Shown here: positions 140 through 61,233 of the stretch, in pieces
How the letters are laid out: each line of letters opens with the position of its first letter
Numbering within the stretch: the stretch's first letter is position 1
Source: Oehlia diaphana
Taxonomy: Eukaryota > Glomeromycota > Glomeromycetes > Glomerales > Glomeraceae
NCBI GenBank assembly: GCA_003833135.1
Contig: QZLH01000274.1
Coordinates: forward strand, 24,893 to 88,892
Length of the DNA: 64,000 bases
Direction: 5' to 3'
Made by a program: the position numbers and the translations under genes
Notes under the pieces: generated by a model
What the model was told of the DNA's origin: nothing
The model's input: the letters and a program-made list of their open reading frames with translations, nothing else
Database searches by the model: none

Positions 140-666
140 ATGAATATTAATAATTCTCTACCAAGTAGTTTTAGTAATAATGATTACGAATCCAATTCTC
201 AAACAGCAGTTACCCAGCCTTACGATACATATACGCCTGTCACGTATAACAATAACGTTAACGTAATTTCTGATCAGAACAATGACGCCACTATTCTTCC
301 CGATCATAATCACTATCAACACAATGTTCAACTTCTGCTGACCATAGCCACCATCACAATTATCTACAACATATGTCCAATGTCGATACAAACAATAACG
401 TTACCTTTTCTTCTAATAATAATAGTAATAATCATCACGCTTTCACTCATCATAACAATCAACAATCCAATAACGTTTTTTCGCCGCCGCAATCTTACAA
501 TAATCAAAATCAACCTAGTAATCCATCACAATCTAACATTCTTCCTCTGCTTAATTCGTTTGGTATTAATATTAATTCTCCTCAGGCAACTATTATTATT
601 ATGCCTACAGCTAATTCGGATATTCAAAATCAGCTTCAACGGGTTTTTGCTCGGTTTCAACAATAA
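140..666 (+). pseudogene. Asn/Gln-rich low-complexity protein, type I copy 1 (frameshifted)
   Basis: The ATG at 140 opens a frame beginning MNINNSLPSSFSNNDYESNS, matching the paralogue at 60376 (both have YESNSQT, PYDTY/TYDTY and VISDQ). The homologous frame is left around 320-345. It continues in another frame from about 340 through TNNNVTFSSNNNSNN to a C-terminal module ININSPQATIIIMP followed by NSDIQ, with stop TAA at 664-666. The paralogue has this module in one frame, so a one-base indel is the simplest explanation. A short intron is possible but no good GT-AG pair is obvious. No catalytic domain, signal peptide or membrane segment is visible. The composition is prion-like (Asn, Gln, Ser, His, Tyr). 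Function unknown. Confidence 0.6.
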
Positions 667-2469
667 ATTCTTAACGTTCAATGAATAAGATTTTTCCCGT
701 TTTACAAAATTTATTTATTTATTTATTTATTATTTATTTCTTTATTCCTTTATATTTTAACATAATGGTCGCCATAGTTACTACTAAGTAACTCTATCGC
801 TTAACATCTATTAATATTATTTAAGAATTATATTTTTTTTTTTGTTTTAGAATTTACGCCATTACACGTGGTTTTGAAATTGTTACTGATTAAAGACTTC
901 GACTGAACAAAAAATTCTTGCTTCTTTGCTCATTCGGTTGATGATTTAGAAATGTGAGTCTCTCTGAGGCGACCATTTAAAGATAAGCTTCGTTATTCGA
1001 AATTCTTTTTCTCCACAAAATAATGAAACTGTTCATTTTTCGTGGAACTTTACAAATTTAAGAGAATTTTTCGATTTTTAAATTTGAACGTAGGTTTAAT
1101 AAAATTTATTATAATAAACTTTTTAATTTTGACTAAAGTTAATTTCAATGAAAAAGAATTCAATTTTTTTATAATAAGTAAATAAGTAAGTAAATACGCT
1201 TAATTATATTCTTATCTGAATCAAGTCTTGAAGATATCCATTTAAGAATTTAATTTTTAATTACGAAATTTAAATCTTCCCATCATCCTTTTAAATACAA
1301 AAGTACCATTAATATTTGGGTTTAACATATATAATAAGCATAGTCTGTGGTCATCAACAAAGATTTTTCCTTTTTAGAAATTGTCTCAGAAATTTTGTTT
1401 ACATTGGCCGTATTTTTTTTTTTTATAATTAGTTTAGTGCGTTATATAAGTAATTATTACAAACGCCAATGTACGTAAAATAAAAGATTTCATATTTTTT
1501 CTTAACCCCTGATAATTAATCCATTTTATCCTATTTTGGCTTCCCATAATTTAGTATTTGTACGTACAGTATATATAAATATTATTTGTCATAAATTAGC
1601 GTTTTAATGAGGTATTACATTATTAAATTAGAAATAAGGAATTTGGAAATAACATTTACTGATGTTTACTTACAAAATAAATCATTTGTATCTATTTTAT
1701 CAAGCAAATTAAGTAAAACCCTTACCACTAGGAGTGAAGATGCTTTATTATGTATAAAAAAGTACCTAGTACTAATCGGAAATAACTGTTCTAAATGGAG
1801 TAATCTTTAAGGTGGCTTAAATTTTGTAACGTCGGCTGGTGTATTTTCCAGATAATAGGAATTATAATGATTATATGTATAAATAAAATAGAAATAATTA
1901 AGTTCCTTTAGATGAGAGGATTTGATTACTGCACGGTGATTGTACGTCTAAATGCTAAGATCTTGTTTTGTTCATTTTTAACATTTCTGATCATGCACGA
2001 AAAAATTACAACCAATTACATCAATTATTTCATGAGGAAAAAAGATTCTTTTTTAATTTCCTTTGTTTTAATAATGACATAATTCGTTATCTTTATGACA
2101 GGTGAAATACTAAATGATATTTTATCATGTGTTGAAAGTAACGATTTATTTTAAAACGCAATAAAGAAAAAAAAAATCAATTCAAAATTATTCAAAGATT
2201 AAAAGTGAATTAAAAGTAAATTGAATAAAAAATTAAAAGTTGATTGAATTGAATTAAAAGTTAATTGAATAGTTAATTTACTGAATTCAAAGTAAAATTA
2301 AAGACATTATTTTTTTTTTATTACAATTAATCCAATATTACAATTATTTAAACCGCTTGTTTTTTTTAAGCGGATTTTTAAAGAAATTATTGCTAATTAA
2401 ATACACCTAATCAGAGCCAAAAATTAAATTAAATTTTATTATATGCCTATTTAAAGTATTCTATAAAAT
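667..2469. other. AT-rich intergenic region
   Basis: No supported gene. Poly-T and poly-A runs and TTTA repeats (about 710-740) follow the Asn/Gln gene. A 67-codon frame at 1607-1810 has a TATATATAAATA box only about 37 bp upstream, but it has no recognisable homology and is not called. Confidence 0.5.
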
Positions 2470-3750
2470 TTATGCGCTTGGAGTGCGTAAAAAGCTATCT
2501 GGAGAACCACTCTTAAGACCTTTAACGACTCCCTTTGTTGATAAAGTTTTAAGTGCGGTTGCCATTTCAGCTGGTGATTTGTTACCATCCTTGGCAATTA
2601 TAAGAGCTATAGTACCAGCAACATGTGGGGTAGCTTGAGAGGTGCCGGAAAATATTACAGTACCATTATTGCCTTCAAAATTAGCACCTTTAATGTCTCG
2701 ACCTGGAGCGAAAATGTCGATACATTTACCAAAGTTTGAGAAATCTGTGACTACGTCACTATTTTTTTCGGTAGCACCGACCGTGATAGCGCTAGGTTCA
2801 GATGCAGGTGATACATTACAAGCATCCTGACTTTCGTTACCTGCGGCAACAACTACGTGAACACCAGCATTGGTAAGTTGCTTGACAGCATCGTTTACAA
2901 CTTTTGATATAGGACCTCCAAGAGACATGTTGACAACTGATTTCTTACTCTCACTCTTACTGTGTGTTTCTCCTATAAAGTTCAATCCAGCAACAATTCC
3001 ACTATTATTTCCAAAGCCATTAGCGTCCAAAACTCTAACAGCAATTGGTGTGGCTTTTCTTGCTACTCCTAAAGTTGCTCCACATGCAATGCTAGCAACA
3101 TGAGTACCATGACCAAATTCATCTTTATTGTTGCATCCATCACAGAAAGATCCTCCGAATTTGGCACGACCACCGAATTCTTTATGTGTAATTCGAATAC
3201 CTGTATCGACAATAAAAACGTTTACACCTTCTCCAGCAGAATCGGGGTAAGTATATTTTCCATTTAAAGGTCGTTTAGCTTGATCAATACGATCAATATT
3301 GAAAGTTGGTTTATTGTCTACTGCACGTCTAGTAAGTTGAGATGGTACTACATATTGAGTCCTAACTTCACCATCTTCTTCAATATAATCAACATCATCC
3401 ATTTTTTCAAGTTCCTTTGCAAATTGTGGTGTCATTTCTCCAATAAGACCAAAGAGATTAACAATTCCGAAACTAACGAAAGTGGGATTGTCCTTATTGC
3501 TAAGAGAATTAATTTTATCGAAACTATCAATTTCTGTTTGAAAGCAATTTTTAAACAACTCGTGTTGCCTTTGCGCAGCTTGCTTGTCTTTAAAGACAAC
3601 GATAAATTTTTTCCCTTTACCATCAGACTTGGCATTGATTGATAATGTTTTAGGGCAATCAGTTTCATTTTTTGCTGATTCAGCCGAGGAGAACAAGAAA
3701 GTAACTATTACAGCGATAGAGAAGATTTTAGCGAAGCGTGGAGCAACCAT
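2470..3750 (-). CDS. Secreted proteinase K-like subtilisin (peptidase S8) with I9 propeptide
   Basis: A single-exon secreted serine endopeptidase of 426 residues. I start at the ATG at 3750; the frame extends six codons upstream only through a TTG. Residues 1-26 form a signal peptide (hydrophobic SIAVIVTFLFSS, then AESA). An inhibitor I9 propeptide spans about 49-130 (FIVVFKDK to YIEEDGEV). A TRR site near 140-142 precedes the mature enzyme. The catalytic triad is intact: Asp182 in FIVDTG, His214 in GHGTHVA and Ser371 in SGTSQATPHVAG, with oxyanion Asn305 in AAGNES. The Ser motif has Gln where Met is usual (GTSMA). Length fits fungal proteinase K-like enzymes. It probably acts in the apoplast or wall; the substrate cannot be read from sequence. 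No neighbour is functionally linked. Confidence 0.95.
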   Translation of the reverse strand: MVAPRFAKIFSIAVIVTFLFSSAESAKNETDCPKTLSINAKSDGKGKKFIVVFKDKQAAQRQHELFKNCFQTEIDSFDKINSLSNKDNPTFVSFGIVNLFGLIGEMTPQFAKELEKMDDVDYIEEDGEVRTQYVVPSQLTRRAVDNKPTFNIDRIDQAKRPLNGKYTYPDSAGEGVNVFIVDTGIRITHKEFGGRAKFGGSFCDGCNNKDEFGHGTHVASIACGATLGVARKATPIAVRVLDANGFGNNSGIVAGLNFIGETHSKSESKKSVVNMSLGGPISKVVNDAVKQLTNAGVHVVVAAGNESQDACNVSPASEPSAITVGATEKNSDVVTDFSNFGKCIDIFAPGRDIKGANFEGNNGTVIFSGTSQATPHVAGTIALIIAKDGNKSPAEMATALKTLSTKGVVKGLKSGSPDSFLRTPSA

Positions 3751-3980
3751 TTTTTTATTTTTTGGCAATTAGTGGTTTATTTAGGTAAGAATTTTAAATT
3801 AAGGAGATAAATATAATAAAAGAGGAAGGTGATGATTTAATAATTTATTCTATCCACGTAGTGGATAAAGAATGTTTATAGTATTATAAAATGAGGGAGG
3901 AGGAGAATTAGACTCTGGTTAGGATTTTTTTATTATTTTTTGATTTTCGGATGAAGAAAAATTAAAAGCAAAACTGGTTG

Positions 3981-3990
3981 TATTTATATA
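3981..3990 (-). promoter_or_regulatory. Candidate TATA box for the subtilase
   Basis: On the minus strand TATATAAATA lies about 230 bp before the ATG at 3750. The distance implies a long leader or a 5' UTR intron. Other AT-rich candidates lie closer, so the assignment is tentative. Confidence 0.3.
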
Positions 3991-4678
3991 CAAAAATTTC
4001 TCAAATTTTACGTACGCTAGTAAAGATTTTCAAGTAATATTAAACCCGGTTTTAATGTAAGTTTCCATTTCATTTTAAAAAAAACTTCTTCATTACGAAT
4101 ACGAAAGAGAAAGATTTCCATTTCCTAATAAAAAAAAAAAAATAAAAAAAGTTAGCTTCATATATAAATTACCTGCGGGGTTTTTTCTTATTTATGAAAA
4201 TTGATATCATCCATCTTTTTGTTTATTTTTACATTTTTACATTTTTATTTTTCAAAATAACTATTAAAAAAGGAAAAAAATTTTCTATGCCGATCATTTA
4301 ATGATTAAATGGCGGATTGTAATCACATAAACATATGTCGGCAGAACATTGCTGTTTTCAAGTTAGTCTTGTACGTCATCCCCTAAAGAATCGGTTTTCG
4401 TGAGATTATAAGCAATTACCAGAGGAAATCTTGGGAAGTTTCAGTTATTTGAGTAGTTTCTCAGTTTCTCTTGAAATACAATAATGTTAGTTTAAAATTT
4501 TATTTATAATGAAACTACCTAGAAGCCAGAATGTCTTTCAGAAATCGCTGATAATCGGCCATTTTCTATATAATGGTATAATAAAATTGCCGGTATTAAA
4601 TCGCAAATTTTTGGAAATCGATTATTTTTAGGGGTGCTATGAAAAAGGCGATATCTCACAAATTTATTATAGATCTTC

Positions 4679-4870
4679 CCCAGCGTCGCCCCAAGATTTT
4701 TCACCTCACGTGACCTGCACAAAATGTCACTCCGCGTCACACCCCGCCGTTTTCATTTTTTTATAAGTATTCTGGGGACTTAATGGTGAAAAAAATATTT
4801 TTCACGCCCCATTAAACATCACTGGTCACGTGGGGTGAAATTTTACTTATAAATCTTGGGGGTAAATTTT
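4679..4870. repeat. Degenerate inverted-repeat element (MITE-like)
   Basis: The left part has CCCCAAGATTTTTCACCTCACGTG. The right part has the reverse order: CACGTGGGGTGAAATTTT, a short insertion, then AAATCTTGGGG. The inner part carries a second inverted pair (TCTGGGGACTTAATG against CCCCATTAA). It is non-coding, with no target duplication identified. Confidence 0.5.
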
Positions 4871-5079
4871 ATTATAGTCAAATGACATGTGATTATGCAA
4901 ATCCGAATTATATTTTTAGTATGGGTATTTTTAACTTTTTTTTATTAGAAATGGAAATCTTTCCATTTTTGAACTAAATATTTTTTCAAAAAATGAAAAA
5001 CATTTCGCCGAAAGGACGTTTCGCCGAAAAATAGGGCCAACATTATGCAGAATTATAAAAATAATCCATTGTACCGACG

Positions 5080-6448: not shown

Positions 6449-6480
<32 letters not shown>

Positions 6481-6931: not shown

Positions 6932-7019
6932 AGTTATTTCACGGGGAACTGTGGATATCAATGATTTTCGCGGCGCAGCCGTGAAAATCATGATATTCCA
7001 GTGACTCCGTGAAATAACT
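6932..7019. repeat. 88-bp near-perfect palindrome
   Basis: The left arm AGTTATTTCACGGGGA..., then GTGGATATCA-TGATTTTCGCGG, is mirrored by CCGTGAAAATCATGATATTCCA, then TCCGTGAAATAACT, around a small CGCAGC loop. It would form a hairpin with arms of about 40 bp. It abuts the inverted-repeat element starting at 7022. Confidence 0.85.
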
Positions 7020-7021
7020 GA

Positions 7022-9713: not shown

Positions 9714-9714
9714 N
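9714..9714. other. Single ambiguous base at a sequence join
   Basis: The N marks an abrupt switch from the Tc1 transposase relic to a near copy of 7337-7497, which suggests an assembly join rather than a natural junction. Confidence 0.6.
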
Positions 9715-9875: not shown

Positions 9876-9904
9876 ATTTTATTTTCCTGAAAATAACCCA
9901 AATG

Positions 9905-10605: not shown

Positions 10606-10949
10606 ATGAACGACGAAACTCGTACTCAGATCACATATACGACTTCTGAAATTTCCACTGATCAATATGAAATATTCCGCGTCATGAAGCAACCTACTAT
10701 GCCTAATGCAGCTTCAAGCAACGACGTTACTGACCATAATCATCAACAATCTACATCCAACAACGTTTTACCTCCGCAATTTCACCCACAACATATTAAT
10801 CAAAATACACCTCGATCGTGTCTTATTTTTACAATAATTTACAACAGACAGTTATTTTCAACAATTCAACAAATAATTCAGTACTTATGCAGCCTAATAC
10901 TTGTTTGAATTGTTCCTCAATAAATAACTCACAAACTCGATCTCAATAA
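10606..10949 (+). pseudogene. Asn/Gln-rich protein, type II copy 1 (frameshifted)
   Basis: It starts MNDETRTQITYTTSEISTDQ, comparable to the MNDTNTPVTYNVTTSDIPSD start of the 25631 copy. It continues through STSNNVLPPQF. After about 10815 the family C terminus lies in another frame: NNSTNNSVLMQ, then NNSQTRSQ and TAA at 10947-10949. This parallels KNNSVLMQFC and NNSQARSQQ of the intact copy. The initiating frame instead runs to a stop near 10908 through a hydrophobic tail. One indel explains this. GTGTC...ACAG at the break resembles a roughly 30-bp intron, which is shorter than the introns in the kinase here. Function unknown. Confidence 0.6.
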
Positions 10950-16294: not shown

Positions 16295-17524
16295 TTAATC
16301 ATAATTTGACAAGTGACAATCCGAAAAGTCATCTTTAATCTCCTCGCTTTTTAATTCTTCCGTTATTTTAATTTCTTCGTTTTCATTTTTTTTAGAATTA
16401 ATATTGTTTTCAGAATCAATTTCATTAAGCTTTGAAATTACTTGATTAACATCTGGTCTTTCGTCCGATTCATATCGCCAACATTCTATTTAAATAAATA
16501 AATTAAATTTGGATTGCTAATTTTGTTATAAAATAAAAAAAATTTAATAATAATTTTATACTTACGTTGATAAAGTTCAATAAACTTAACATTTATGTTT
16601 GGAATAGGTTCTTCTCTTACGCCATTAAGAATCTTTAACGAAATAGAAGCATGATCTCTTTTTTCAAAATTGAAAGGTGACGAACAACTTGTTAATTGCC
16701 AGAATGTTACTCCTATACTATATATGTCGGATTTTTTTGTTAAATATGGAATTTTTTTTTCAAGCATTTTAGGATCCACATATGGTAATACACCAAACAC
16801 TCCGGTATCAACATCCGATCCTTGTAGACATGAACGCCCAAAATCTGCTAATTTTATTACATTCCCGTGTACCAGGATATTATTTGGATGCTAAATATAA
16901 AGATTGTTTCAATAAATAATTAGTCACAAAGGTAAATTATAAAATAATATAATAATTCAAACTTACAATATCTCGATGAATGATATCATAATTATGTAAA
17001 CAGTAGATTGCACTTGCAATTTCTTTGGCAAATTTCAATTGAATTTCCGGCTTAAGTGTTTCAACATTTTCTAAATATTTTCCTAATGTTCCGCCATCTG
17101 CATACTCAAGTACAAGCGAATAATTTATTTCATCTAAAAAGAATATAAAAGTATATAAACAAATACTTGAATAAATTATTATACAAATATTTATTATCAA
17201 CAAGTATTTATTACTTACCATTTATGACTCCAACAAATTTAATTATGTTTGGATGAAAGTCAACTCTTTTCATTATATTAATCTATTAAAAAATAATAAA
17301 AAAATTAGAAATGTATAATCTTTTAAATGATTAAAGTTTATGAAATAAACCTCATTAATAATAATTTTTTCTTCCATAGCAGATTTGGTAATTTTCTTAA
17401 TTGCAAATTTTGTTGCATCATCTTTCCAGTACGCAGCATGAACCGAGGCGGTTCCTCCAGAACCAATCACAGCAAGAATCTTAAAATCCTGGTTGTTATA
17501 ATGATGACAATCCTTGAGTAACAA
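16295..17524 (-). CDS. Protein kinase, five visible exons, 5' end unresolved
   Basis: A Ser/Thr or TKL-type kinase catalytic domain, 306 residues from 17524. Exons: 17524-17351, 17282-17219, 17133-16967, 16890-16566 and 16485-16295. All four introns are GT-AG (68, 85, 76, 80 bp) and the joins keep frame. Motifs: glycine loop IGSGGTASV (20-28), Lys43 in FAIKK, catalytic loop HRDIHPNN (132-139, spanning an exon join), DFG at 151-153 and PYVDPKM in the activation segment. These are followed by SDIYSIGVTFWQLTS and CWRYESDERPDV. The acidic tail rich in Glu, Lys and Asn is cut by the stop at 16295-16297. All key residues are intact. The first codon here is TTG, preceded by TAG, and AATAG fits a splice acceptor. 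An upstream exon with the true start is therefore likely but not identified. Substrate unknown. Confidence 0.9.
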
Positions 17525-19172: not shown

Positions 19173-19438
19173 ATGAACGGTACAACGTACTATTGACTTT
19201 CAGCCGTTCATGTATTCAAACAATAACGTTACTATTTCTCATAACCATATTAAACACCAACTGCGATTTTTACTCACAACATGTTAACCAAAATCCACCT
19301 CAGTGTCTGAGTCTAATACCAATTGCTCAACTGTTCATTAGCTTATTTCCTCATATGCCAGTAACTAATGCAGATATTCAAATTCAACAGCTTCAACAGA
19401 TTCAAACTCGCAAATTCGGCTTCAATGATAGATTCTAA
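19173..19438 (+). pseudogene. Asn/Gln-rich protein, type I relic
   Basis: ATGAACGGTACAACG resembles the start of the family but reaches a TGA after seven codons. A second frame then reads MYSNNNVTISHNHIKH, like the NNNVT block of the copy at 140. A third ends PVTNADIQIQQLQQI, matching the family C-terminal NSDIQ block, with a stop at 19436-19438. At least two frameshifts make it a pseudogene, shortened relative to the 60376 copy. Confidence 0.55.
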
Positions 19439-21581: not shown

Positions 21582-22043
21582 TTACCTCGAATATTTTTGT
21601 CCCAAATAATCGCCGACAAGTTTATCGTTTTCATGTGGATTAGTTTTTAAATTTAATCGTACCTTTTGTTCAAGAAGAAATTGTTCGGGTCGTTCATTTG
21701 AAATCAGACCTTCAATAAATTTTGAATTCTTCTTGGCGTAGTTTTTCATAAAGAATAAGTGAAACAACTTCATATAATTTCCTTTTGAAAAAAGTTCTTC
21801 AATAGTGTATCTATATCTATCATTTAATAAATAAGCTAATATAGATATAGGAAGAATGATTTTTCGGATTGATTTGATTTTCTGTTGGAGAGAACGAATC
21901 CTAACAACATCAAGTTGATGCTTTTGTACTAACAACATTTCGATTTTAGCATATGGATTTTTTGACCATGTTAACGCCAAATCAAGAAGAAAATTGACAT
22001 ATTTTGAAATAATTTCGCAGAGATTCTGAAAATAATGTTTCAT
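21582..22043 (-). CDS. Family X protein, copy A (unknown function)
   Basis: A 153-residue frame from ATG 22043. It aligns with the decayed gene at 57752: LDVVRIRSLQQKIKS against LDADRIHAFQQKIKS, then AYLLNDRYR against TYLLDEGYK, then FSKGNYMKLFHLF against PSKGNDMELFHFL, then an IEGLIS block and QKVRLNLKTNPH. The copy at 57752 continues for several hundred more codons, so this one is truncated or spliced onward. GAG-GTAAAT at the end resembles a donor and joins in phase to 21240-21440. Predicted soluble, helical and Lys/Leu-rich, with no known domain or signal peptide. Expressed from a TATATAAA box about 71 bp upstream. Confidence 0.5.
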   Translation of the reverse strand: MKHYFQNLCEIISKYVNFLLDLALTWSKNPYAKIEMLLVQKHQLDVVRIRSLQQKIKSIRKIILPISILAYLLNDRYRYTIEELFSKGNYMKLFHLFFMKNYAKKNSKFIEGLISNERPEQFLLEQKVRLNLKTNPHENDKLVGDYLGQKYSR

Positions 22044-22113
22044 CTTAAAAATTTCTTAAATTTCTTTTAAAAAAATGTATAAATTTTATCAAAACGATCT
22101 ATAAAATTCACTG

Positions 22114-25630: not shown

Positions 25631-25972
25631 ATGAACGATACGAATACTCCAGTCACATATAACGTTACAACTTCCGATATTCCTTCTGATCAGTATTATC
25701 AGCAACCTATACACAATATCTCTCCTGATCAGAATCATCATAGCCACCAGCAATATAATAATAATCAAGAATCCACTTCCAATAATTATCAGCAATCCAC
25801 ATCCGATAACGTTTCTTCTCCAAAATTTCAACCGAATACTATCTTTCAAAGCAATGCTATATGTTATCAGAACATTGTTTTTTCCAATGATGCAAAAAAT
25901 AATTCTGTACTTATGCAATTTTGTTCTTGTTCCCCTTTGACAAATAACTCACAAGCTCGATCTCAACAATAA
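25631..25972 (+). CDS. Asn/Gln/Ser-rich low-complexity protein, type II (intact copy)
   Basis: 113 codons from ATG 25631, the only type II member open to the family stop. Beginning MNDTNTPVTYNVTTSDIPSD, it has a middle of HQQYNNNQ, SNNYQQSTS and DNVSSPKF. It ends KNNSVLMQFCSC and NNSQARSQQ. No signal peptide or membrane helix. The Asn/Gln/Ser/Tyr richness is prion-like or disordered. Paralogues at 10606 (frameshift) and 34386 (stops and a transposon) preserve the same blocks, including the Cys-containing tail. The 3' flank (TTCTTGAATTAAATCATAA) is also shared with the 34386 copy. Its promoter is conserved among type II copies. Function unknown. It may simply be the youngest survivor rather than a selected gene. 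Confidence 0.6.
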   Translation: MNDTNTPVTYNVTTSDIPSDQYYQQPIHNISPDQNHHSHQQYNNNQESTSNNYQQSTSDNVSSPKFQPNTIFQSNAICYQNIVFSNDAKNNSVLMQFCSCSPLTNNSQARSQQ

Positions 25973-34262: not shown

Positions 34263-34753
34263 GTGCAATTGTAATTTGGTATCGTCAATTTGACAAAGCC
34301 TACCCTTCTAAAATAAAAATAAAAAAATAAAAAAATAAAAAAATAAGTTATCATTACTAATTTGTACATCTCTTTGAAAACGACCATGATGAACGATTCT
34401 TCTAACAGTAATATTAATAACAGTTTTACAATTTCCCATATTTCCGATGATCTTAATCTTCAGCAGCAGCAGCAATATTATCAGCAATATACATCCAATA
34501 TCTCAAACACTATTCCTCCTAATTATACTAGTCATCCTCAACATTATCAGCAAACCTCATCTAACATTTCTTCAAGCACTATTCATCCTAATCATAATGA
34601 TCAGAATCATCGGATTCATCTGTAATATGAAGCTTTAAATAATAATCAACAATCCACACCCAACAATAATAATACTATTCCTCCTGATAATAGTCGAGAG
34701 CAATATGATGCGAATGATATTCCTCATCATAGTTATCAACAATCATCCACGTT

Positions 34754-35676
34754 TAAGGATGGTCATCGGTCCTACCGGTCCTACTCGGTCCTGGACTGGT
34801 CAGTCCCGGGACTTGTAGGACCGGACCGCGGTCTTGCATTTTTTTGTGGCGCAGTAAGACCGGTCCCGAGGACTGACCAGTCCTCATACCGGTCTTCATA
34901 TAATAAATGATTTTTATATTAAATAAATCTATTAATCTGGTTTATAAAATAATATAAAGACTGACCAATTCCAAACCAGTTATTAATGACAATCACTTCT
35001 TCCTACTTGTAGAGTTGCCTTGTCAAAACGCAAACTCTAAAAAAGCGTTTAAGCGAAATATCTCGTCATCCAGTGATCATAAAAAGATGAAACTACCACC
35101 ATTCGAATCGTCTCAATGAGACGCGTCGAATGGTGGCTAAATCATATTTCCAAGATTGATAGATAGCCGGTAATTATTGAATTTGTTACCAAATAGTTTT
35201 GCTGACGTATAATTTTTTCTATCAATTCTAAAATCATGATTTTAATATCATTCAACGCATCTCGTTGAGACGATTCGAATGGTGGTAGTTACATCCTTTT
35301 ATAATCACTGGGTGACGAGATATTGCGTTTTAAATCTTTTTGTCTCAAAACTTTAAATTTTTGAAACTATAGTTTTGAAGGACTTCGGAAAAAAACTAAA
35401 ACGCAATATGAAAAAATATTTTTGCATAAATATAACTAGAATTAAACCAAAAATGATTTTCTAATAGAGTTCAGGGAAAAAAATTTTTTTATTTGCAAAA
35501 AAAAGAAAAAAGACCGATCAGTCTTAAAAAGACTGCGGTCCTTAAAAAGACCGACGGTCTTATTACATGTGATACAGGACCGAAAGACCGCAGTCCTACA
35601 CTAAGATGGACCAGTCCGTCTTTTTATGGTGTAGGACCGTAGGACCGTGGTCTTTTAGGACCGATGACCATCTTTA
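34754..35676. mobile_element. 923-bp hAT-like non-autonomous element with 8-bp TSD
   Basis: It starts TAAGGATGGTCATCGGTCCT and ends with its reverse complement bar one mismatch. The first bases fit the hAT consensus YARNG. TCCACGTT flanks both sides (34746-34753 and 35677-35684), a perfect 8-bp target duplication. The two ends are rich in GGTCCTAC/GGACCG words. The 288-bp core is itself an inverted repeat. No transposase frame. Confidence 0.9.
35049..35334. repeat. Inverted repeat nested in the hAT-like element
   Basis: The left arm AATATCTCGTCATCCAGTGAT, then ACTACCACCATTCGAATCGT and CTCAATGAGACGCGT, is mirrored at 35255-35334 with few mismatches. The left arm also contains its own hairpin (CCACCATTCGA against TCGAATGGTGG). 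It probably represents a second MITE inserted into the first. Confidence 0.85.
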
Positions 35677-36749
35677 TCCACGTTCGAAAACGTATCTTCT
35701 CCAAGATGTTACTCAAAAACTATTAATCAAAATAATCCTTGACAATGTATTATCTTTCAAAATGATACAATACATCACCAGACAAATGCTTTTTATGATA
35801 ATGCAACAAATAATTCAGTATTTATGCAATTTTGTTTTGATTCTTCTTTAACAAGTAACCCACAACCCTGATCTCAACAATAAATTTCTTGAATTAAATC
35901 ATAACTTTCGTGCTTGACATGTATATATATCCCAATCAGGATTTATCTACTTTTACTATTATATTCTTTATTTATTTCATATTTTTGTTTATCTTCGTCG
36001 TATTTTCGTATTTAAATGCTGCAGCGATAAAACCAATGTATTCTATTTCTAACATTTTTTAAATAAAATGTAATATTGTTCTTAATATTTATTTGTATTA
36101 TTATAATGGATAAAACAACTTTTTAATATTATGAAATTTTATTTGTCTTCAAAAAACTTTACATCTGGAATTAATAACCAAAATTTCTACCACTGACAAT
36201 GGTTACGTACTATGATGTAATACTGTAACCGTATTTGTAAACACCATTGGGTATACGTAATAACTATAAATGTAGATCACTTTCTGCACGTCGGTATACT
36301 CCGTGATTGCATTGATTAGGTAATTTCTATTAAACCAAAAACATATGGAATGAAAGTTAATTGATTTTATTGATCGTAAGAAAAGAATAGCACAACCATT
36401 GTTATACGCGTAGCCTATCAGATAATAGGACTGACATAATAATTTACTAACGTAGTTTTATAATTTTATTTTATGATAAACACGTGTAACTAATCAATTT
36501 TCTTTAAAATGTGCAACCTTAAGTTTTTTGTATACTCACCCCCTAAAATATTATCCTACTGAGACTTAATTGTGCAATTACGGAATTATACGCAGCTGAC
36601 GTACGATTTTGATAAAACTTTATCGCAAAATTTCGTTCCTGCTTACAGCTTAATAAAATCGGATAAATTAGCATGGGATAGAAGATAACAAGATTGTTTA
36701 CGGTTTTATCTGTTATCGTATAATATTATAAAAATTTGCTTAAAAAATG

Positions 36750-39677: not shown

Positions 39678-39974
39678 CTGCTATTTGCAAAAATAACGGA
39701 TCACCCAATTCATTTTTGCTCCGAAGTTTCATACGCAGTCATACGCTAATTGATCGGCATAATTCTGGCCAAATTATAAATTTGACCAGAATTATAATTT
39801 CCATTTTAGTAATTGGTTGTTACACAAATTCAAAAAGGAAATTTTCAGAAAAAGCAAAACTTGTGTTACGGCTATCTCCAAAAAAGGATTTGATCGGCAT
39901 AGCGTTGTTACAATTCTGGCCAAAATTATGATTTGGCTAGAATTACTGCCGATCAATAATTTTGCAAATAGCAG
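39678..39974. repeat. MITE with CTGCTATTTGCAAAA ends
   Basis: The left CTGCTATTTGCAAAAAT and right ATTTTGCAAATAGCAG are complementary. The interior carries GATCGGCATAATTCTGGCC and its partners in inverted copies. Related to the element at 40240-40487. Confidence 0.75.
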
Positions 39975-39976
39975 CA

Positions 39977-40219
39977 CCGGATAAAGCCGGATATTATAAA
40001 TCCAGATGAAATGAATAAAACCGAATATAATAAAATCCGGATGAAACGAATAAAACCGAATATAATAAATCCGGATGAAACGGATAAAACCGGATATAAT
40101 AAATCCGGATGAAACGAATAAAATCGGATATAATAAATCCGGATGAAACGAATAAAACCGGATATAATAAATCCGGATGAAACGAATAAAACCGGATATA
40201 ATTAATCCGGATGAAACCG
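39977..40219. repeat. 34-bp minisatellite, about seven units
   Basis: Units start at about 39981, 40015, 40050, 40084, 40118, 40152 and 40186, so the period is 34 (once 35). Each has ATAAAACCGGATATAATAA, then ATCCGGATGAAACGA. CCGGAT and ATCCGG within each unit form a small hairpin. Units are adjacent without spacers, so this is not a CRISPR array. The later units are the most uniform. Confidence 0.9.
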
Positions 40220-40239
40220 AAGCAACTAAATCTCCCGGT

Positions 40240-40487
40240 TTTACAGCTATTTGCGAAAATAACGGACCACCTAATTCATTTTTCGACTGCGTATGAAATT
40301 TTCATACGCATGGTAATATCTGCCCGGGCCGCCAAACTCATTTTTTGAATTTTTCATATGCAGTCATCCGCAGTTATATCACATAATTCTACTATGCGTA
40401 TATGACTGCGTATGGCTGCGTATGAAAATTTCATACGCAGCCGAAAATCGAATTAGATGGTCCGTTATTTTTGCAAATAGCTGTAAA
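40240..40487. repeat. MITE with TTTACAGCTATTTGC ends
   Basis: TTTACAGCTATTTGCGAAAAT, then AACGGACCACCTAATTC, is mirrored by GAATTAGATGGTCCGTTATT, then TTTGCAAATAGCTGTAAA. Inner CGTATGAAATTTTCATACG is also palindromic. It flanks the minisatellite on the right, as 39678-39974 does on the left. Confidence 0.8.
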
Positions 40488-42000: not shown

Positions 42001-42639
42001 CCCTCCAAACATAATTATTGTGCTAAAGTCATTTGAAATATCTTTAATGACTTCTTGAACACGTAGAAATTGCTTAACTCTTGTATTATAAACGGACAAT
42101 AAAATTATTTGTAAACTTCACTCTAAGAAACATGAATAGTTAGCCCTAGTTTATTTTTTTTTCAAAAAAAAAATAACCCACTTTTTTCTCTTTTTCTTCT
42201 TTATTTTAAAAAATAAGAGTAAAAAGAAGAGTTAGGATTCAAATATATTATAATAAAAAACTTTCGGTATAGTTTTTATTAATTAGAAAAAATTTCTTTT
42301 AAGAATCATAACTCGGTTAATAGATATAAAGTAAATTATATTAAGATAAATTAATTAATTTTTTAATTTCTGAAATACTAATTTAATAATAGTCTTATCT
42401 GTGGAAAAATATTACGTCAATTAGCGCATTGCTTATTAAGAAGAATACTGAGTGCTACAGTAAATAAATTTATAATGTATGGATGTAACCCATTTTTCGC
42501 ATTAATTATCATTTTATAACATAACAATAACTTATTTGATTATGAAACAAATTATTTTATTAATAATGAAGGTTTAAACTGAGATCTCTTTTCGACTTGA
42601 GTAAACTGATTAAAAGTGGTCAAGAAAAATAGGTTACGG

Positions 42640-42842
42640 TACGTTTTGCCGAAACCCATTTCGCCGAAGCCATTTCGCCGAAGGGATGTTTCGCCGAAGG
42701 GATGTTTCGCCAAAGAGACGTTTCACCGAAGAGACGTTTCACCGAAGCAATTTCACCGAATCGTCCATTTCGCCGAAAGTACATTTTGCCGAAACCCATT
42801 TCGCCGAAGCCATTTCGCCGAAGGGCCATTTCGCCGAAAATG
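42640..42842. repeat. TTTCGCCGAA repeat array, left arm
   Basis: About a dozen TTTCGCCGAA words (some CACCGAA or TGCCGAA) at 14-17 bp spacing, separated by ACCCA, GGGATG, GAGACG or GGCCA. All three frames stay open by composition; none is a gene. Inverted partner at 44073-44232. Confidence 0.85.
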
Positions 42843-43084
42843 ATAGAAATATCACTTTTATAAATTTATTAATCGTGTAATCATGATAATAAAATTTTTT
42901 TTATTTATTTATTAATCTCATCATGAACCTTAATTCGTAATTCATGTAACAATCGGAGTACACTCGAAAATTTGCATTTCATTATTAATTCGTATATCAT
43001 TGTTAATTCGTATATAGATAAATCGGTCAATTCTATATTATCCAAGCATTAATTATGGCAGTTATGAAGTTTAAAATTTCACAA

Positions 43085-44003
43085 NNNNNNNNNNNNNNNN
43101 NNNNNNNNNNNNNNNNNNNNNNNNNNNNNNNNNNNNNNNNNNNNNNNNNNNNNNNNNNNNNNNNNNNNNNNNNNNNNNNNNNNNNNNNNNNNNNNNNNNN
43201 NNNNNNNNNNNNNNNNNNNNNNNNNNNNNNNNNNNNNNNNNNNNNNNNNNNNNNNNNNNNNNNNNNNNNNNNNNNNNNNNNNNNNNNNNNNNNNNNNNNN
43301 NNNNNNNNNNNNNNNNNNNNNNNNNNNNNNNNNNNNNNNNNNNNNNNNNNNNNNNNNNNNNNNNNNNNNNNNNNNNNNNNNNNNNNNNNNNNNNNNNNNN
43401 NNNNNNNNNNNNNNNNNNNNNNNNNNNNNNNNNNNNNNNNNNNNNNNNNNNNNNNNNNNNNNNNNNNNNNNNNNNNNNNNNNNNNNNNNNNNNNNNNNNN
43501 NNNNNNNNNNNNNNNNNNNNNNNNNNNNNNNNNNNNNNNNNNNNNNNNNNNNNNNNNNNNNNNNNNNNNNNNNNNNNNNNNNNNNNNNNNNNNNNNNNNN
43601 NNNNNNNNNNNNNNNNNNNNNNNNNNNNNNNNNNNNNNNNNNNNNNNNNNNNNNNNNNNNNNNNNNNNNNNNNNNNNNNNNNNNNNNNNNNNNNNNNNNN
43701 NNNNNNNNNNNNNNNNNNNNNNNNNNNNNNNNNNNNNNNNNNNNNNNNNNNNNNNNNNNNNNNNNNNNNNNNNNNNNNNNNNNNNNNNNNNNNNNNNNNN
43801 NNNNNNNNNNNNNNNNNNNNNNNNNNNNNNNNNNNNNNNNNNNNNNNNNNNNNNNNNNNNNNNNNNNNNNNNNNNNNNNNNNNNNNNNNNNNNNNNNNNN
43901 NNNNNNNNNNNNNNNNNNNNNNNNNNNNNNNNNNNNNNNNNNNNNNNNNNNNNNNNNNNNNNNNNNNNNNNNNNNNNNNNNNNNNNNNNNNNNNNNNNNN
44001 NNN
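43085..44003. other. Assembly gap (919 N)
   Basis: A run of N lying between inverted CGCCGAA arrays, consistent with a repeat that defeated assembly. Confidence 0.99.
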
Positions 44004-44072
44004 TCATGTATAACGAATGGAATAATCTGTCGATTTTATAAAACAAACAAAAAATAAACAAATGTAATAAAT

Positions 44073-44232
44073 AATGTTTCGGCAAATAGTCATTCGGCGA
44101 AATGGCTTCGGCGAAATGGGTTTCGGCGAAATGGTCCTTTCGGCAAAACGTCTCTTCGGCGAAATGTCTCTTCGGCGAAACATCCCTTCGGCGAAATGGC
44201 TTCGGCAAAATGGCTTTCGGCAAAACGTCCTG
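44073..44232. repeat. TTCGGCGAAA repeat array, right arm (inverted)
   Basis: TTCGGCGAAATGG, TTCGGCGAAACATCCC and TTCGGCAAAACGTC units are the reverse complement of the 42640-42842 array, in mirrored order of spacer words. Together with the gap this defines an inverted-repeat structure of about 1.6 kb. Confidence 0.85.
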
Positions 44233-44384
44233 ATACCAGAAAAATAAATACGGTATAAAAACATGACGGATGATGAAGGTAAACTATATGCAATTGTGGA
44301 TTTTAGATTTTAATATTATATTAATTTGCAAACTGATTATTATTGTATAATCTTTTACAAAATATTTCAATATTCATAATAGCA

Positions 44385-53935: not shown

Positions 53936-54295
53936 CATTGAAAGAAACTCGAAGTTATTATTTATTACTAATAATCAAATTTTATCATCTAAATCCTGAA
54001 GAAGGGTTATTAAACAAGCATGAACTTGCTGAATATCCGAATTTGAGGAGAAATTAATGGTAATGTTAAGCAATATAGGAAATGTATTAGATCGAGGTGA
54101 AAAGAATTGCGAAGATTATTATTATTATTGTGATTAGTATTGATGATTATTATTATCATTGGACTGTTGATAATTGTGATGGTGAATATGATATTGCTGA
54201 TATTGCTGATTATGATTAGCTAATCAGGAGAGTATCATTAGCTGGTAATTAGGAGGGACATTGTGTTGATTGTTGATATCGCTGAATATGACAAT
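53936..54295 (-). pseudogene. Asn/Gln-rich protein, type I relic, antisense and 5'-truncated
   Basis: The reverse complement matches the 3' half of 60376-61233: ATCATAATCAGCAATATCAG, CACCATCACAATTATCAACAG, then CGCAATTCTTTTCACCTCG, TTAACATTACCATTAATTTC and TCGGATATTCAGCAAGTTC. The downstream GATAAAATTTGATTATTAGT is also shared. Several stops and indels interrupt it and the N-terminal half is absent. Confidence 0.75.
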
Positions 54296-57200
54296 CTTGT
54301 AAATACATATTCTTGTATAGCACAAAAAGCTATTTTTTGTTATTGAGTTCTTTAAATACAATTATTTTCCTGCGTTTTAGCGCGTTCGTTCCTAAATTTC
54401 TAAAAATTTTTACCGACAAAACGAAGTAACGAGAACAAATTATCAATTTAAGGTAATTTTGTGATTTGTTGATAAAATTATATAACAATGATCAAAACAT
54501 TGAAAAAAATGCATGCAGGAGGTTTATAAAGTTATAGAATTACAATTAATTGTAAAATCTTTTTTTAAACAACAATCGCAATTGGTAAAGATCAGCTAAA
54601 ACACAAGTTTCGTGACAAAATGGATCATGAAAAAAACGAGGGTTCGGACGAGATGAACTGATGAATAAAAGGCATAAAAGAGAAGAGAGGAGCGACGTAG
54701 TACTAGTGGCACAGTTATTTTTATTCAAAAATTTTAATAATGAAACTTTGAATAAACCCTTTTCATATTATTTTCAAGATTAAACAGCTAATTTCGGCTA
54801 ATTACTACACAACAACAAATAAATATAAGATTATTGTAATTTTTTTTAAATGTATTATTTTAAAAGAAATATTTATTGATTTTTTTTTTAGTACAAGAAT
54901 TATTAAATTAAAAATGAATATTTATTTCATATAAAAAACTTTTTAATTATTTTTGTAGCAATGTTTTTAGAATTTTCTAATTTTTATATTTTTTTTTTTT
55001 TGCTTATTAAAATAATTCAATATTTTAACTTTAAATGGAAAATTCGTTATTTTCGAATATACAGCTGACCATACACTTACTGATCACTATATTATAGGAA
55101 ATCATTAGATTTTTCCCGATTTCCACTTTTTTTAATGTCTTCGCTTTAATTGAAATTTGTAATGATAAGTCAAATTATTATTCCTAAAATAATTATTTAG
55201 TCTATCCGTAATAAATTTGACGGAGACATGTTATTCAAATTAACTTATACAGGGAAATTGGTCTGAGATACAATTGATCGTATTATGCGATGTAAATTAG
55301 CTAAGTTATATTGTGATCTGTAAATAGACGAGCGTTAAGTCGTTAACACATAAAATCTTAAAAATAATACAGATCTAAGCGAAAGATATAAAGTAAATTT
55401 TTACAAGTAAATTAACTAATTCCTTTAAATTATCTTTGTTCATTAGGAATTAAAATTAGTATAGTTCTAAATGATAAGTTTCATTATTTTTACTGTGGGA
55501 AAGAATTTTCGCAACGCAAACTATATTTGAAAGATAATATAGTTATTGAGTATGATAAAAAATTATACTGCATTGATAAAAAATTATACTGTACAGATAA
55601 AAACTATACTGTATAGATTTTTGTCAACTATACTATACAACTTCGGAGGTATATATCATACTCAATATCATTTAACCGTATTTGAAATGGTCGTCCCCAA
55701 GGCGATCACATTTCTAAATTGTAAACCGAGCGGAGGTAATATCTTTTGTCCAGTCGAAATTATTAAGTTCTTATCTTCTTATGAGAATCTTTGTTACATT
55801 TAAATTCCCAAAATATTTATCAAAAATAATTTACCTACAGGACTAAGTATAAAAGAAGCCCAAATTGTCAATCGGCTTAAATTACCGGCCCATCTTTTAT
55901 AGACAGTAACAACGATACTTTCCTAATATAGTAATTATTTTGATATTGGCATATTACGATTGGGGCACAACATTTTACCTGTTAGATTTTTTTTAATTTT
56001 ATAAATCATCATAAGCCTTCTTTTTTTTATTTTAAGAATAATGGTGTTACTCCGTAACAGGGCTGAAGAAAATTATCGCGTACAAGAAAATTTCCAAAAT
56101 GCATATTTAGCCAATAGTCGTTACCGACATGGTATCACATTTAAACAAATGATAGACAAAAATTTTTAACAAAGTCGTAACAGGTAACGTTCGGCTGGTT
56201 AAAACAATGTAATACAAACGGTTAAAATATTTGATGCAGGAGTTTTTGAACACGCAATACGCAACGTCTTTTTTTTTTTTTTTTTATATATATTATTTAT
56301 AATCGATTTTGTGTTTTAAATAGGCTAATAAATAAGCCAATGATTACAACATGATTTGAAAATATCTTTAATGGTGAGATAAAAAAAAAGTTAAAAAAGT
56401 ATTGTTATTAAACCCCTTTATTGTCAGAAAAGATTTTAGGTAATTATTAACATAACGATCAAATGCTTAATTATTACAAATTTAGAATATGTCCATGTAA
56501 GTTAGTTAGAGCACATGATTTTTAAACTTTTATTTTAACACAAATAATATAAATAAAAAATCTTTCTTGGATTATTTGTCTTTATGTAATATATAATAAA
56601 TGTGTGCAGTGTTAACTAACTTAGTAATAAGATTGTTAAAGACAACTTGGAGCTATGAATTTTACTCAGATGGTTGTGTTATTCTCGTGTATTACTTCTT
56701 GCAGGTATATTTACTGCGGTTTTTTTATAAAAACTAAAAAATTGAAGTATGATAGAGAGTTTTATGGGATACTCGACACTTGACAGTCAGATCGACATTA
56801 AAAGCAGCTTTAATTTTGAAAATAGATTTATATAATTGACATTATATTTCACATACAGTATTTCTCCGTTCTATAAATTGATTTATTATATAATAAACTA
56901 ATGTTTTTAGTATTATTACTATTTTATACAATTCTATTCTCGCTCAGAAATTTTTTCATTCATGAGAGTCGAGATTTATTCCGAGAGTTTAAAAATTACC
57001 AGGGTGGTAAAATACTTAGACTCCATACATCGTTTTAGTTTGTTTTTATTACAAAGCACTACTATAAATAATTTCTTTCAAAAAGCGATTAAAACGTTTA
57101 TATCCCTCAACTAAGCAGTTTGTCAAAGAAAATTAGTTACTGTACATTTATTTTTTTTTAATATAAAAAATCTCTGCCAAATTTTTTTTTACCGCTTTTT

Positions 57201-57751
57201 TCAAAGTTTTCAAAGTTAGTACCCATGTTTCTAAAGGGAAATTCTAAATACTTTTTGATTACTTTGAATTTTTTCGAGCAACAAAGACACAATCATATTA
57301 TAAGTGTTACAATCCATTATTTACGTTCATTAAATTTCCAAAATTATTTGCGAGGATAATAGTGCTTATTATGTTTTTTTTTTATATATGCCACACTGAC
57401 TCTGAGAAATAATCATATTTCCTTTTTTATAGTGATAGTGCCTTTGATATTATTCCTAAAATAGGCTAGATAAAATTTTATCCCGCCATCATCACGTTAT
57501 CCCTGAGTCAGGACTGAGTACTCCGATTTTTGTATAAAGAGGGTAGTTCACGAACAAAAATTCTTTTTAAATTCTTTTTTTTAAAAAAAAAATATTTGCT
57601 TTCGCATTTATGTTCGGAAATTAAGATTCTCAATTTTGTGCTACAACCATTAATAATTACCTAATTTATTAAAATGCAACAATATTTTCAAAATTTTGAA
57701 TATGAAATTAAGATAAACACATACAAATATCCCACTTAATTTGGTATTGAC
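54296..57751. other. Intergenic region
   Basis: No firm gene. Short frames at about 55687-55803 (MVVPKAITFLNCKPSGG) and 56041-56169 (MVLLRNRAEENYRV), the latter after a TTTTAAG acceptor-like site, could be exons of an unknown gene but have no supporting homology here. Confidence 0.35.
55544..55666. repeat. Inverted repeat with internal TATACTG repeats
   Basis: ATTGAGTATGAT (55544) is mirrored by ATCATACTCAAT (ends 55666). Inside, GATAAAAAATTATACTGCATT repeats three times at about 20 bp with small changes, carrying the TATACTGTA word common in the window. Confidence 0.7.
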
Positions 57752-59387
57752 ATGTCGAAACTGGTATATTTTATTCAAAGGTTAGTTATGCATTTTGGAA
57801 AATATGATCAAAAGTTGATAGAGCTCAAAATAGAGCATAATGTCGGTCAACTTGATGCGGATAGAATTCACGCTTTCCAACAAAAAATCAAATCTCCATG
57901 GGCGAGCAATTTACCCATATTCGTGTTCACTTATCTATTAGATGAAGGGTACAAACAATTAGTTAATATGAATGAAACCTTGCCTTCAAAGGGTAATGAT
58001 ATGGAGCTATTTCACTTTCTCTCCGCAGGCCCTCACGTGATAAATTACGCTCCCGGCATGTTGAGAAAGATATAGAAGATTTGATTTTAAAATAAACGGT
58101 TCGTTCCATTTCCTCCTAGACAAAAAGCGTATCAATTAGATTTAAATAGCGATCCACATATTCATCAACAACCAATTCCTGAGGAGTATCCTTCCAAAGA
58201 TGGATTCGAAAATAATAGACAGCTTAACGTAATTGCGAGAGAAATTCTTATTCATCCGGACCTAGTGAACTTATGGAAACAAATTTTATATTTATTTTTA
58301 TGTTTCAGAACGTACGAAGCTGTAGTACAAATTAACTTATGGAAACAAATTGATTATTATGAGATTTGTAACGACGTTAATGACTTGATCATGCAAGGAG
58401 CATTTCTCATTCTATTCCCACCAACGACCGCATCCGATTGGTCTTGTCCATCCATTGAAATTGTAATTTCACGTCTTGCCGAACTTATATATCTAGGTTT
58501 CTCATTGAAGCCTATATGCTTTAATAAAGTACGGAAAAGTTGTATTCTTCACAAAAAACACAAAAAATCAAATTAAATTTTTTTTTTTTTTAAAAAAAAA
58601 AAAAAATTTATATCTTTTGTCGCACAAAATTATTTACACGGAAATTGAGCATCGATTAGAAGAAATAAGAGACATCTCGTGGGACGCTTTCTTTGCAATT
58701 CGATCAGCTGAAAATGTCTATTCACTCGCCCTTAAATTTTTCAGAGAAGCTTTAAACTCGAAAGAAACTTAAAGAAAGATGACTTACTAAATTTCCTTAA
58801 TCCAAATTTGATTATCATGTACAAGTTATAAAGCAAGTCATTAAACAATCTTTTATAGAAGAAAAAATGAGCGATATTACGATAAGAAGAAAATCTTTGA
58901 TACTGTCACCAAAGATTTATCAATATGTCCTTAAAACTTATAGTAAGGATTCCGAGCTCACAGTTATTTGTTTTGAGGACATCCTTACTTTAAGAATCTA
59001 TATTTACAACCCACGAAATTTGGAAGAAATATCGACTTGTACCAGAGATTCTATCAACTCGGTTTTCGACTCATATATTAAAGAAATAGTACTTTCCAAC
59101 CATCTTTGGAATGAAGACATTTAGCAAGAGAGGGAAATCTACTCCTAGGAAAGAAAGAAGTTAACAGATGAATTGGTCGTTCCATAAGCGAAAAAACTTG
59201 AACAGATCGACTCACTTGATCGAAGCAATCATGGAGAACTGTCAATTAATCTTTACCCTAATCCTTACCCTAATCCTTACCCTAATCCTTACCCTAAAGA
59301 CGAAATGATAATCAAACTGATCAAGATGTTAACATGAACATAAACTTTAATGATACTCCAGATTTTTTCAGAAATATATTTAATTAG
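57752..59387 (+). pseudogene. Family X gene, copy D (long, frameshifted)
   Basis: ATG 57752 begins MSKLVYFIQRLVMHFGK, then LDADRIHAFQQKIKS and LPSKGNDMELFHF, homologous to 21582-22043. A one-base shift near 58015 moves the homologous frame (VEKDIEDLILK). From about 58095 the first frame is used again: YQLDLNSDPHIHQQPIPEEY, then NVIAREILIHPDLVNLWKQ, DYYEICNDVNDLIMQGAFLI and SCPSIEIVISRLAELIYLGF, to a stop at 58576. After a T/A run, EIEHRLEEIRDISWD, MSDITIRRKSLILSPKIYQY (58867-59124) and a YPNP-repeat tail lie in other frames, with a final TAG at 59387. An 18-bp direct repeat (AACTTATGGAAACAAATT at 58267 and 58333) flanks a TTTCAG acceptor-like site. It shows that the complete family protein is several hundred residues. 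No known domain recognised. Confidence 0.7.
59252..59298. repeat. 12-bp tandem repeat TTACCCTAATCC (telomere-like, coding YPNP)
   Basis: Four tandem units of TACCCTAATCCT, the complement containing TTAGGG. In the family X frame it codes Tyr-Pro-Asn-Pro repeats after SINL and before KDE, so it is best read as a coding microsatellite in the C-terminal tail rather than an interstitial telomere. Confidence 0.75.
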
Positions 59388-60198
59388 TTTTTATGCAACT
59401 TTGAATAATTTATCTTGGTAAGTATTATTCCAATATAAAGTGAAACAAACTTTTATGACAGATATTTTATGATTTCTTTAGAACCCCGAAATATGACACA
59501 TACGTAAGGGATATGCATAAAAGTCGAGTTTGTGTACAACCAGCCAAAAAAAATTCATGGAATTTTTCCTTTTATAGATAATGCTTGGTGGAAAGTTATT
59601 GCCCTTTTGGATACTGACCATAATTCCGGCCCTGAAAAAATTCGTACAGCTAATTGTAAAATTTTTTTTGGCTGCATCTGACCTATTTCGGGTACTATTT
59701 CTTTTACGATTTTGTCACATCTAGAAATCTAGAAACGATAAAACTTAATATGAAATAAAAACTTACGACTAAAATTAAGGGTAATATTAAATTACTCAAT
59801 AGATTACATAGATTACTTAGAAAAAAAGAGGTTTTTTTTCGATCGTTGTTATGTATTTCAATATACTATAGTAAGTTAAATTCGAGGTATTAATAATGTA
59901 ATTTATATATTTTTTAAGTCAATGAACTATATACTGTATTTTGAAGTAAAATCCCTTATGTGGGTATTAATTAATCTAAACGAATTGAATTCTGAATCGT
60001 TCAAAAACACGACTTTTAAACTTGCACTTAAACATGTTCTCGTTATTATGTTACTGTTATTATTACTAACGAACCAATATTATCAATAGAAAATTTTTTA
60101 AGCTATTCTTTTAGACTCAAAAACAAACTGTCTAGATGTGTAAACATTATTGGTTCATTCTTTTAACCGTTTAAAGAATTTAGCAATAAAAATAGCTT

Positions 60199-60375
60199 TT
60201 CGTGCTACGCCAGAATAGATGTGTTTACAAGTTTTTTTCTTATAAAAACCTCTGAAATTTTCCTCCCTCGAAAAAAAAAAAAAATATATATATAAAAACC
60301 TCTGAAATTCTCCTCTCTCGAAAAAAAAATATTCATCATTTTCCATCAATCCAACCAATAATTTATAAAAAAACT
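60199..60375 (+). promoter_or_regulatory. Type I promoter and leader with duplicated TATA unit
   Basis: TTCGTG-TACGCCAGAATAG, then ATGTGTTTACAAG (60199-60231), matches the promoter at 1-35. A roughly 50-bp unit TATAAAAACCTCTGAAATT, then CTCC-CTCGAAAAAAA, occurs twice in tandem (60241 and 60291), so two TATA boxes stand 135 and 85 bp before the ATG. The leader CATCAATCCAACC corresponds to that of the copy at 140. Confidence 0.65.
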
Positions 60376-61233
60376 ATGGTCACTCATAATTCTTCAAATA
60401 ATTTTGGTGATAATATCTATGAATCAAATTCGCAAACAACTGTTGCTCCGACGTACGATACATATATGCCTGTCACGCCTTGCAATAACGTTAATAACGT
60501 AATCTCCGATCAGCAACTCATGATGTCAAACACAATCTCTCCCAATCAGCAAACCAATGTTTCTTCACCAAATCATAATCAGCGATATCAGCAACACAAT
60601 GTCGCTTCACTTAATCAGCAGCAATATGATGCTATTAATAACGTCACTATTTCTCCTGGTCGGCAACCCATCATGTTTAACAATGATGTCACTACCTCTT
60701 CTGATCAGCAAACCAATGTTTCTTCGCCTAATCATAATCAGCGATATCAGCAACACAATGTCGCTTCACTTACTAATCAGCAGCAATATGATGCTATTAA
60801 TAACGTCACTATTTCTCCCGGTCGGAAATCCACTATGTCAAATAATGATGTTACTACCTCTTCTGATCAGCAACCCATACCTAATCAGCAATATCAGCAA
60901 CACAATGTTGTTTCACCTAATCATCAGCAGCAATATGAAACCGCCATCTCTAACAACACTGATTCCTTTATTCCTGGCCTTAATCACCATCACAATTATC
61001 AACAGCCCAGTGATAATAATCATCACAATTCAAACAATACTAATCACAATAATAATCAGCAATCTTCGTCTAATAATGATTCACCCTCGCAATTCTTTTC
61101 ACCTCAATCTATTATGTTTCCACTTTCGCTTAACATTACCATTAATTCTCCTCAGACAAATTTTATCATTATACCTAATTCGGATATTCAGCAAGTTCTT
61201 TCTTTTTTGAATAATCCTTCTTCAAGATTTTAA
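60376..61233 (+). CDS. Asn/Gln-rich low-complexity protein with 53-residue repeats, type I (intact)
   Basis: 285 codons, the longest and only intact type I member. The N terminus MVTHNSSNNFGDNIYESNSQ, then TYDTYMPVT, is followed by two tandem repeats of 53 and 54 residues (about 58-164): QQTNVSSPNHNQRYQQHNVA, then QQQYDAINNVTISPGR and NNDVTTSSD. A partial third repeat follows. Next come a His/Asn tract (HHHNYQQ to NNNQQSSSNN) and the family C-terminal module FSPQSIMFPLSLNITINSPQ, then FIIIPNSDIQQVL. No signal peptide, membrane helix or enzyme motif. The sequence is disordered or prion-like with a short hydrophobic, conserved C terminus that may be the functional part. Promoter shared with the copy at 140. 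Function unknown. Confidence 0.75.
   Translation: MVTHNSSNNFGDNIYESNSQTTVAPTYDTYMPVTPCNNVNNVISDQQLMMSNTISPNQQTNVSSPNHNQRYQQHNVASLNQQQYDAINNVTISPGRQPIMFNNDVTTSSDQQTNVSSPNHNQRYQQHNVASLTNQQQYDAINNVTISPGRKSTMSNNDVTTSSDQQPIPNQQYQQHNVVSPNHQQQYETAISNNTDSFIPGLNHHHNYQQPSDNNHHNSNNTNHNNNQQSSSNNDSPSQFFSPQSIMFPLSLNITINSPQTNFIIIPNSDIQQVLSFLNNPSSRF
60547..60940 (+). repeat. Coding tandem repeat, 159-162 bp
   Basis: Unit 1 60547-60705 (159 bp), unit 2 60706-60867 (162 bp, one extra codon), partial unit 3 from 60868 to about 60940. Units 1 and 2 differ at few positions, so the expansion is recent relative to divergence between paralogues. Confidence 0.9.

Follow-up and report, generated by a model that had tools for sequence, protein, structure and literature searches.

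The nearest described kind to the genes considered here are the AGL/IDP cell-surface families of Glomeromycotina, which the pertinent passages of their report portray as small, clade-restricted, disordered and repeat-bearing, asparagine-rich families included (PMC8786786). SP7-like effectors are Glomeromycotina-specific and secreted, and the sections of the source that deal with them mention condensates (PMC11333574). More broadly, domain-less proteins of Glomeromycota carry more low-complexity regions than expected, according to the relevant part of a survey (PMC11878562). We analyzed a window of 64,000 nucleotides from Oehlia diaphana, contig QZLH01000274.1 (G000:C274:24893-88892, within a 108.8-Mb assembly), which holds seven copies of an Asn/Gln-rich gene family. 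These almost certainly belong to a real coding family that evolves as copies duplicate locally and are lost, and whose members have to date been seen in Rhizophagus and a single Glomus only. No description of it was found in the open-licence literature searched, and it is apparently an undescribed, clade-restricted real family that stands not far from known kinds.

Across the 16 frames that we collected, asparagine makes up 19.7% of residues, serine 12.6%, glutamine 11.7%, isoleucine 7.6%, proline 7.4%, aspartate 4.7% and glycine 1.5%; lysine, arginine and glutamate together reach 3.0%, and tryptophan is absent. The richness in asparagine and glutamine and the scarcity of charged residues resemble those of the Q/N-rich prion-like proteins of the yeast type, from which the family differs in having a conserved tail and no folded partner domain. 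The likeness to the AGL/IDP families lies in disorder and clade restriction within the same fungi, whereas the glycine, proline and asparagine contents are unlike the composition outlined for those families in the passages concerned (PMC8786786). Perhaps also unlike them, as they are portrayed there, 12 of the 16 N termini have no apparent endoplasmic reticulum signal-like character, being not strongly hydrophobic (at most 0.45, judged on hydropathy only). SP7-like proteins can be set beside the family by description only, as another Glomeromycotina-specific group, and differ in being, in the sections that describe them, secreted effectors (PMC11333574). Finally, a short conserved motif at one protein end recalls the amyloid signalling motifs that accompany fungal NLR systems, as sketched in the relevant part of the source (PMC9815663), but here two tail searches of the own genome showed no receptor-linked copy and a helix is predicted in the tail.

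The initial annotation had listed seven copies in the window. A profile of 18 relatives, with the two open window members excluded, matched all seven at their places with domain E < 0.01 and nowhere else in the whole window, and gave no match below E 0.16 in the reversed window; a tail-only profile matched six of the seven and missed the copy at 34386. These seven are not the whole family, which by our own count comprises 22 loci on eight contigs of the same genome: seven in the window on C274, five on C76, three each on C70 and C352, and one each on C36, C302, C780 and C972. The count may be low, as the searches score best candidates only. One of the five C76 loci is a 5' DNA match only, the C76 locus at 176 kb carries stops, the C302 locus lacks the 5' part, and three others have one stop each. 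Two C352 loci reach only E 0.04 and 0.06 in one of the searches, yet have the close relatives P0059 and P0091. Matches of ~45 bp at the DNA level on C344 and C850 were excluded as members, as were C1085 and C1446.

Three protein searches yielded 93 proteins, one of them the window's own; the 92 further public proteins come from Rhizophagus irregularis (41), R. clarus (16), R. diaphanus (7) and Glomus cerebriforme (1), with 27 lacking a species name. Rhizophagus accounts for 64 of the 65 species-named proteins, the exception being P0088 of G. cerebriforme (E 3.4e-5). The C36 copy (L034:5070-5660, minus strand) is 100% identical to P0027 (C1646_819599, R. diaphanus); judged by this protein and by the R. 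diaphanus model that matches the copy at 140, the genome is most probably that of R. diaphanus. P0010, also of R. diaphanus, has no close match in the assembly, the best being pieces of 69-85% identity, and part of the genome may therefore be missing from it. For seven R. diaphanus-type proteins, among them P0001, the longest contig listed measures 221,938 bases, and C274 has 89,877 bases; this difference suggests that the family cluster may continue beyond the window.

The initial annotation would have counted a lack of intact orthologues in related strains against real genes; orthologue-like proteins of near full length occur in R. irregularis at 83.6-93.2% identity for five frames. In the window, the open type I gene of 285 amino acids at 60376..61233 (plus strand) matches P0002 (93.2% over 280 residues), and the open type II gene of 113 amino acids at 25631..25972 (plus) matches P0023 (92.9% over 113 residues); elsewhere in the genome the pairs are C36 with P0025 (92.9% over 196 residues), C352b with P0059 (87.2% over 148) and C352c with P0091 (83.6% over 183). 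Further pairs join C70a with P0040 (96.2% over 157 residues), C70b with P0046 (98.0% over 151) and C972 with P0068 (68.2% over 176), proteins without a species name. Insertions and deletions (indels) between the chosen open frames had lengths divisible by three in 24 of 27 coding cases versus 11 of 32 in the flanks for three disjoint pairs, which were picked after the pairwise table had been inspected, and in 116 of 149 versus 53 of 192 for all 15 overlapping pairs.

In whole-protein tests on four to six of the 16 frames, omega, the ratio of nonsynonymous to synonymous substitution, took its lowest value in the real rather than a shifted frame in all six alignments, with real-frame values of 0.465, 0.335 and 0.322 when the alignment was protein-guided (shifted frames 1.5-3.5). 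The tail core was tested in nine of the 12 frames holding this block. Among these nine divergent paralogues omega was 0.047, or 0.126 without the four anchor columns used to find the core, with an excess of third-position change (p 0.037), all rough figures given the few codons (15). Our reading of these comparisons is that selection probably acts on the frame and on the tail core, and weakly on the exact letters of the spacer.

The proteins have a conserved N terminus, a predicted disordered Asn/Gln/Ser-rich spacer and, in type I, a tail of ~40 residues whose pattern is kept across 67 proteins. It runs from alternating hydrophobics through an NSPQ-like turn, four consecutive hydrophobics and an NSD-like cap to hydrophobics spaced as on a helix face. 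AlphaFold, given the 67-row alignment (26 of the 93 proteins left out), places strands at 163-166 and 169-172 and a helix at 179-194, with ten-residue block means of the predicted local distance difference test (pLDDT) of 52-69 in the tail and 37-46 elsewhere; the prediction for the tail is a pair of short strands and a helix of amphipathic character, at modest confidence. The earlier statement that no known domain explains these genes holds for Pfam and for PDB sequences: Pfam gave a single weak match in one of the 67 proteins (E 0.0035) and no convincing domain, and a profile search of PDB sequences gave no match at E 1.

Types I and II had been described as two separate types. Against a profile built from 65 rows of type I, taken from an alignment that had also contained type II, the type II proteins, three in number, score 34.5, 15.0 and 13.5 bits, compared with 7.8 bits for the best of 600 composition-keeping shuffles, which rules them out as unrelated families. 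Judged by these scores, they are branches of one family. Type II shares with type I the region that precedes the tail and the extreme end of the protein; the hydrophobic tail pattern is absent from it, and on this comparison it is a shorter branch without a recognisable tail pattern.

The earlier division of the window's copies into two intact, four broken and one split was borne out. The type I copy at 140..663 (plus) is frame-broken, its N- and C-terminal halves lying in different frames; the full-length relatives P0058 and P0056 read through uninterrupted where it breaks, and both its ends are matched by the public model P0074 (C1646_757355, R. diaphanus). At 10606..10946 (plus) lies a frame-broken type II copy, split between two frames by its profile and tblastn matches. 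The weakest of the seven, at 19173..19435 (plus), is a decayed relic, also split between frames, with profile matches at 19210-19414 (E about 0.0007-0.002) and no tblastn match with the 93 proteins at E 0.05. A type I copy recognised by profile at 54011..54295 (minus) has several stops. The remaining type II copy is split by a transposon-like insertion of about 922 bp (34754..35675): its N-terminal half (34386..34753, plus) was found by profile, and its C-terminal half (35676..35877, plus) by tblastn with P0023, scoring weakly in the profile (E 0.22-0.77); each half has one internal stop. The insertion is bounded by terminal inverted repeats of ~20 bp that differ at one position and by a 9-bp target duplication (34745-34753 and 35676-35684), from whose length we take it to be Mutator-like.

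In the open gene at 60376, the conserved tail, for which the family has the predicted strand-strand-helix pattern, occupies 61120..61230 (plus), and the spacer carries internal duplications of 159-162 bp. The gene is 70% identical to the copy at 140 in a 243-column alignment across the leader and the start of the frame, and some similarity extends beyond its frame, by about 230 bp on the upstream side and 240 bp on the downstream side. A second frame, rich in Ile, Leu and Ser, is open across most of this gene (60524-61210), and P0004 of R. irregularis runs at its end into a frame matching it.

A quick tree was built from 85 rows, comprising 69 proteins and 16 own-genome frames, after 24 of the 93 proteins had been dropped as fragments, broken models, near-duplicates or the window's own. 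The type II, C352b, C352c, C70a, 60376 and C36 branches each mix R. diaphanus and R. irregularis rows, and a clade of eleven rows contains nine of the 16 from R. clarus; 41 of the 82 inner branches are unresolved, which leaves the deep order unsettled. A segmental duplication on C76 is visible at the DNA level. Birth and death of family copies is supported, and the proposal of a birth-and-death multigene family with conserved ends and predicted disorder gains from the cross-species relatives, the mixed-species branches and the low AlphaFold confidence outside the tail. In the C36 group, the R. irregularis rows form no single clade apart from R. diaphanus. Its R. irregularis members are mostly 7-11% apart from each other (P0022 more), mostly about as far as from R. 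diaphanus, and may be either alleles or paralogues.

Our preferred reading, put forward tentatively, is that the proteins may build scaffolds or condensates within the hypha, working through tail and spacer. The tail would self-associate or dock, the spacer would supply many weak contacts, and for the spacer frame and composition would matter more than exact letters. As a whole, the account that joins the coding family to this role comes close to an even balance without reaching it. In its favour stand the relatives in other species, the mixed-species branches, the in-frame indels, the lowest omega falling in the real frame, the constrained tail core with its kept hydrophobic pattern and predicted strands and helix, the low share of Lys, Arg and Glu, and the 12 of 16 N termini that are not strongly hydrophobic. 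Several observations weigh against it. Whole-protein selection is weak and alignment-dependent: DNA-guided alignments gave whole-frame omega values of 0.906, 0.491 and 0.773 (shifted frames 1.0-3.1), third codon positions were the most variable in only six of 15 pairs, and pairwise dN/dS of the tail scattered from 0.30 to 1.24. The dN/dS comparison suggested in the initial annotation finds constraint in the tail core, while its support for whole proteins depends on the alignment. Moreover, the use of chosen open frames biases the indel test, five of the seven window copies are broken, the tail pLDDT is only about 52-69, and a first AlphaFold run with 15 rows showed a short helix only.

Those broken copies, together with the second frame open over 60524-61210 and the weak codon-position bias, would fit mostly neutral repeats, old duplicated DNA of little or no function in which composition keeps an Asn/Gln-rich frame open. 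This is very unlikely in view of the near full-length relatives in other species, the in-frame coding indels and the constraint on the tail; despite the selection of open frames, such a number of indels would scarcely have left a neutral frame intact. We find it highly improbable that a mobile element carries the frame and has spread it through transposition. The multicopy state and the similarity that runs past both ends of the 60376 frame would suit such an element, but Pfam found no transposase-like domain in the proteins, the copies are clustered on contigs, with a segmental duplication on C76, and orthologue-like pairs link the species.

If the family is coding, its products might instead be regulatory co-factors, Asn/Gln-rich proteins of the activator or adaptor type whose tail docks one partner without self-assembly. 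A disordered spacer followed by a short conserved tail with a predicted amphipathic helix suits a docking peptide; Pfam scans gave no DNA- or RNA-binding domain and basic residues are very few, and we consider this role unlikely. That the tail nucleates a self-propagating form, as in prion-like or amyloid-signalling proteins, seems quite unlikely. A prion-propensity scale, applied to the family's own frames only, gives values above 0.05 in 14 of the 16 frames, and its maximum lies within the last 60 residues in 14 of them as counted over all 16, but a helix is predicted within the tail and no receptor-linked tail was found. Two own-genome tail searches, with 10 and 11 matches, showed no tail joined to receptors or other domains, although divergent motifs could escape them; all matches lay in family loci except one on C1085 (E 1.2), which was not examined. 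Clade restriction and fast turnover, frequent among effector families, would also fit secreted symbiosis effectors that leave the cell without a classical signal, a role to which we give little credence; the 12 of 16 N termini that are not strongly hydrophobic, on hydropathy only, speak against secretion.

Other features of the window include an open frame for a subtilisin-like protease that has an inhibitor I9 propeptide, at 2470-3768 (minus; Pfam PF00082, PF05922), and a piece of a protein kinase gene at 16489-16890 (minus; PF00069). Pieces of a gene family without a Pfam match lie at 57740-58573 and 21585-22055 (minus). This second family also occurs between copies of the Asn/Gln-rich family on C76 and has 45 genome matches, some in frames of more than 600 codons and one of 3170; with so many, its proximity is not specific, and we rejected the gene at 57740-58573 as a linked partner. 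A 34-bp unit forms a tandem array at 39964-40251, and GCCGAA-rich inverted-repeat arms flank a run of N at 42632-44237.

It is tempting to speculate that these variable Asn/Gln-rich proteins form tail-driven assemblies specific to Glomeraceae that serve as identity or compatibility markers in multinucleate fungi, and that some of their variants may predate the species; we regard this as highly improbable. Low-complexity proteins without domains are easily dismissed. Here, one such family combines coding evidence with cross-species conservation and a single constrained tail, and through it one can test what disordered proteins do in obligate root symbionts.
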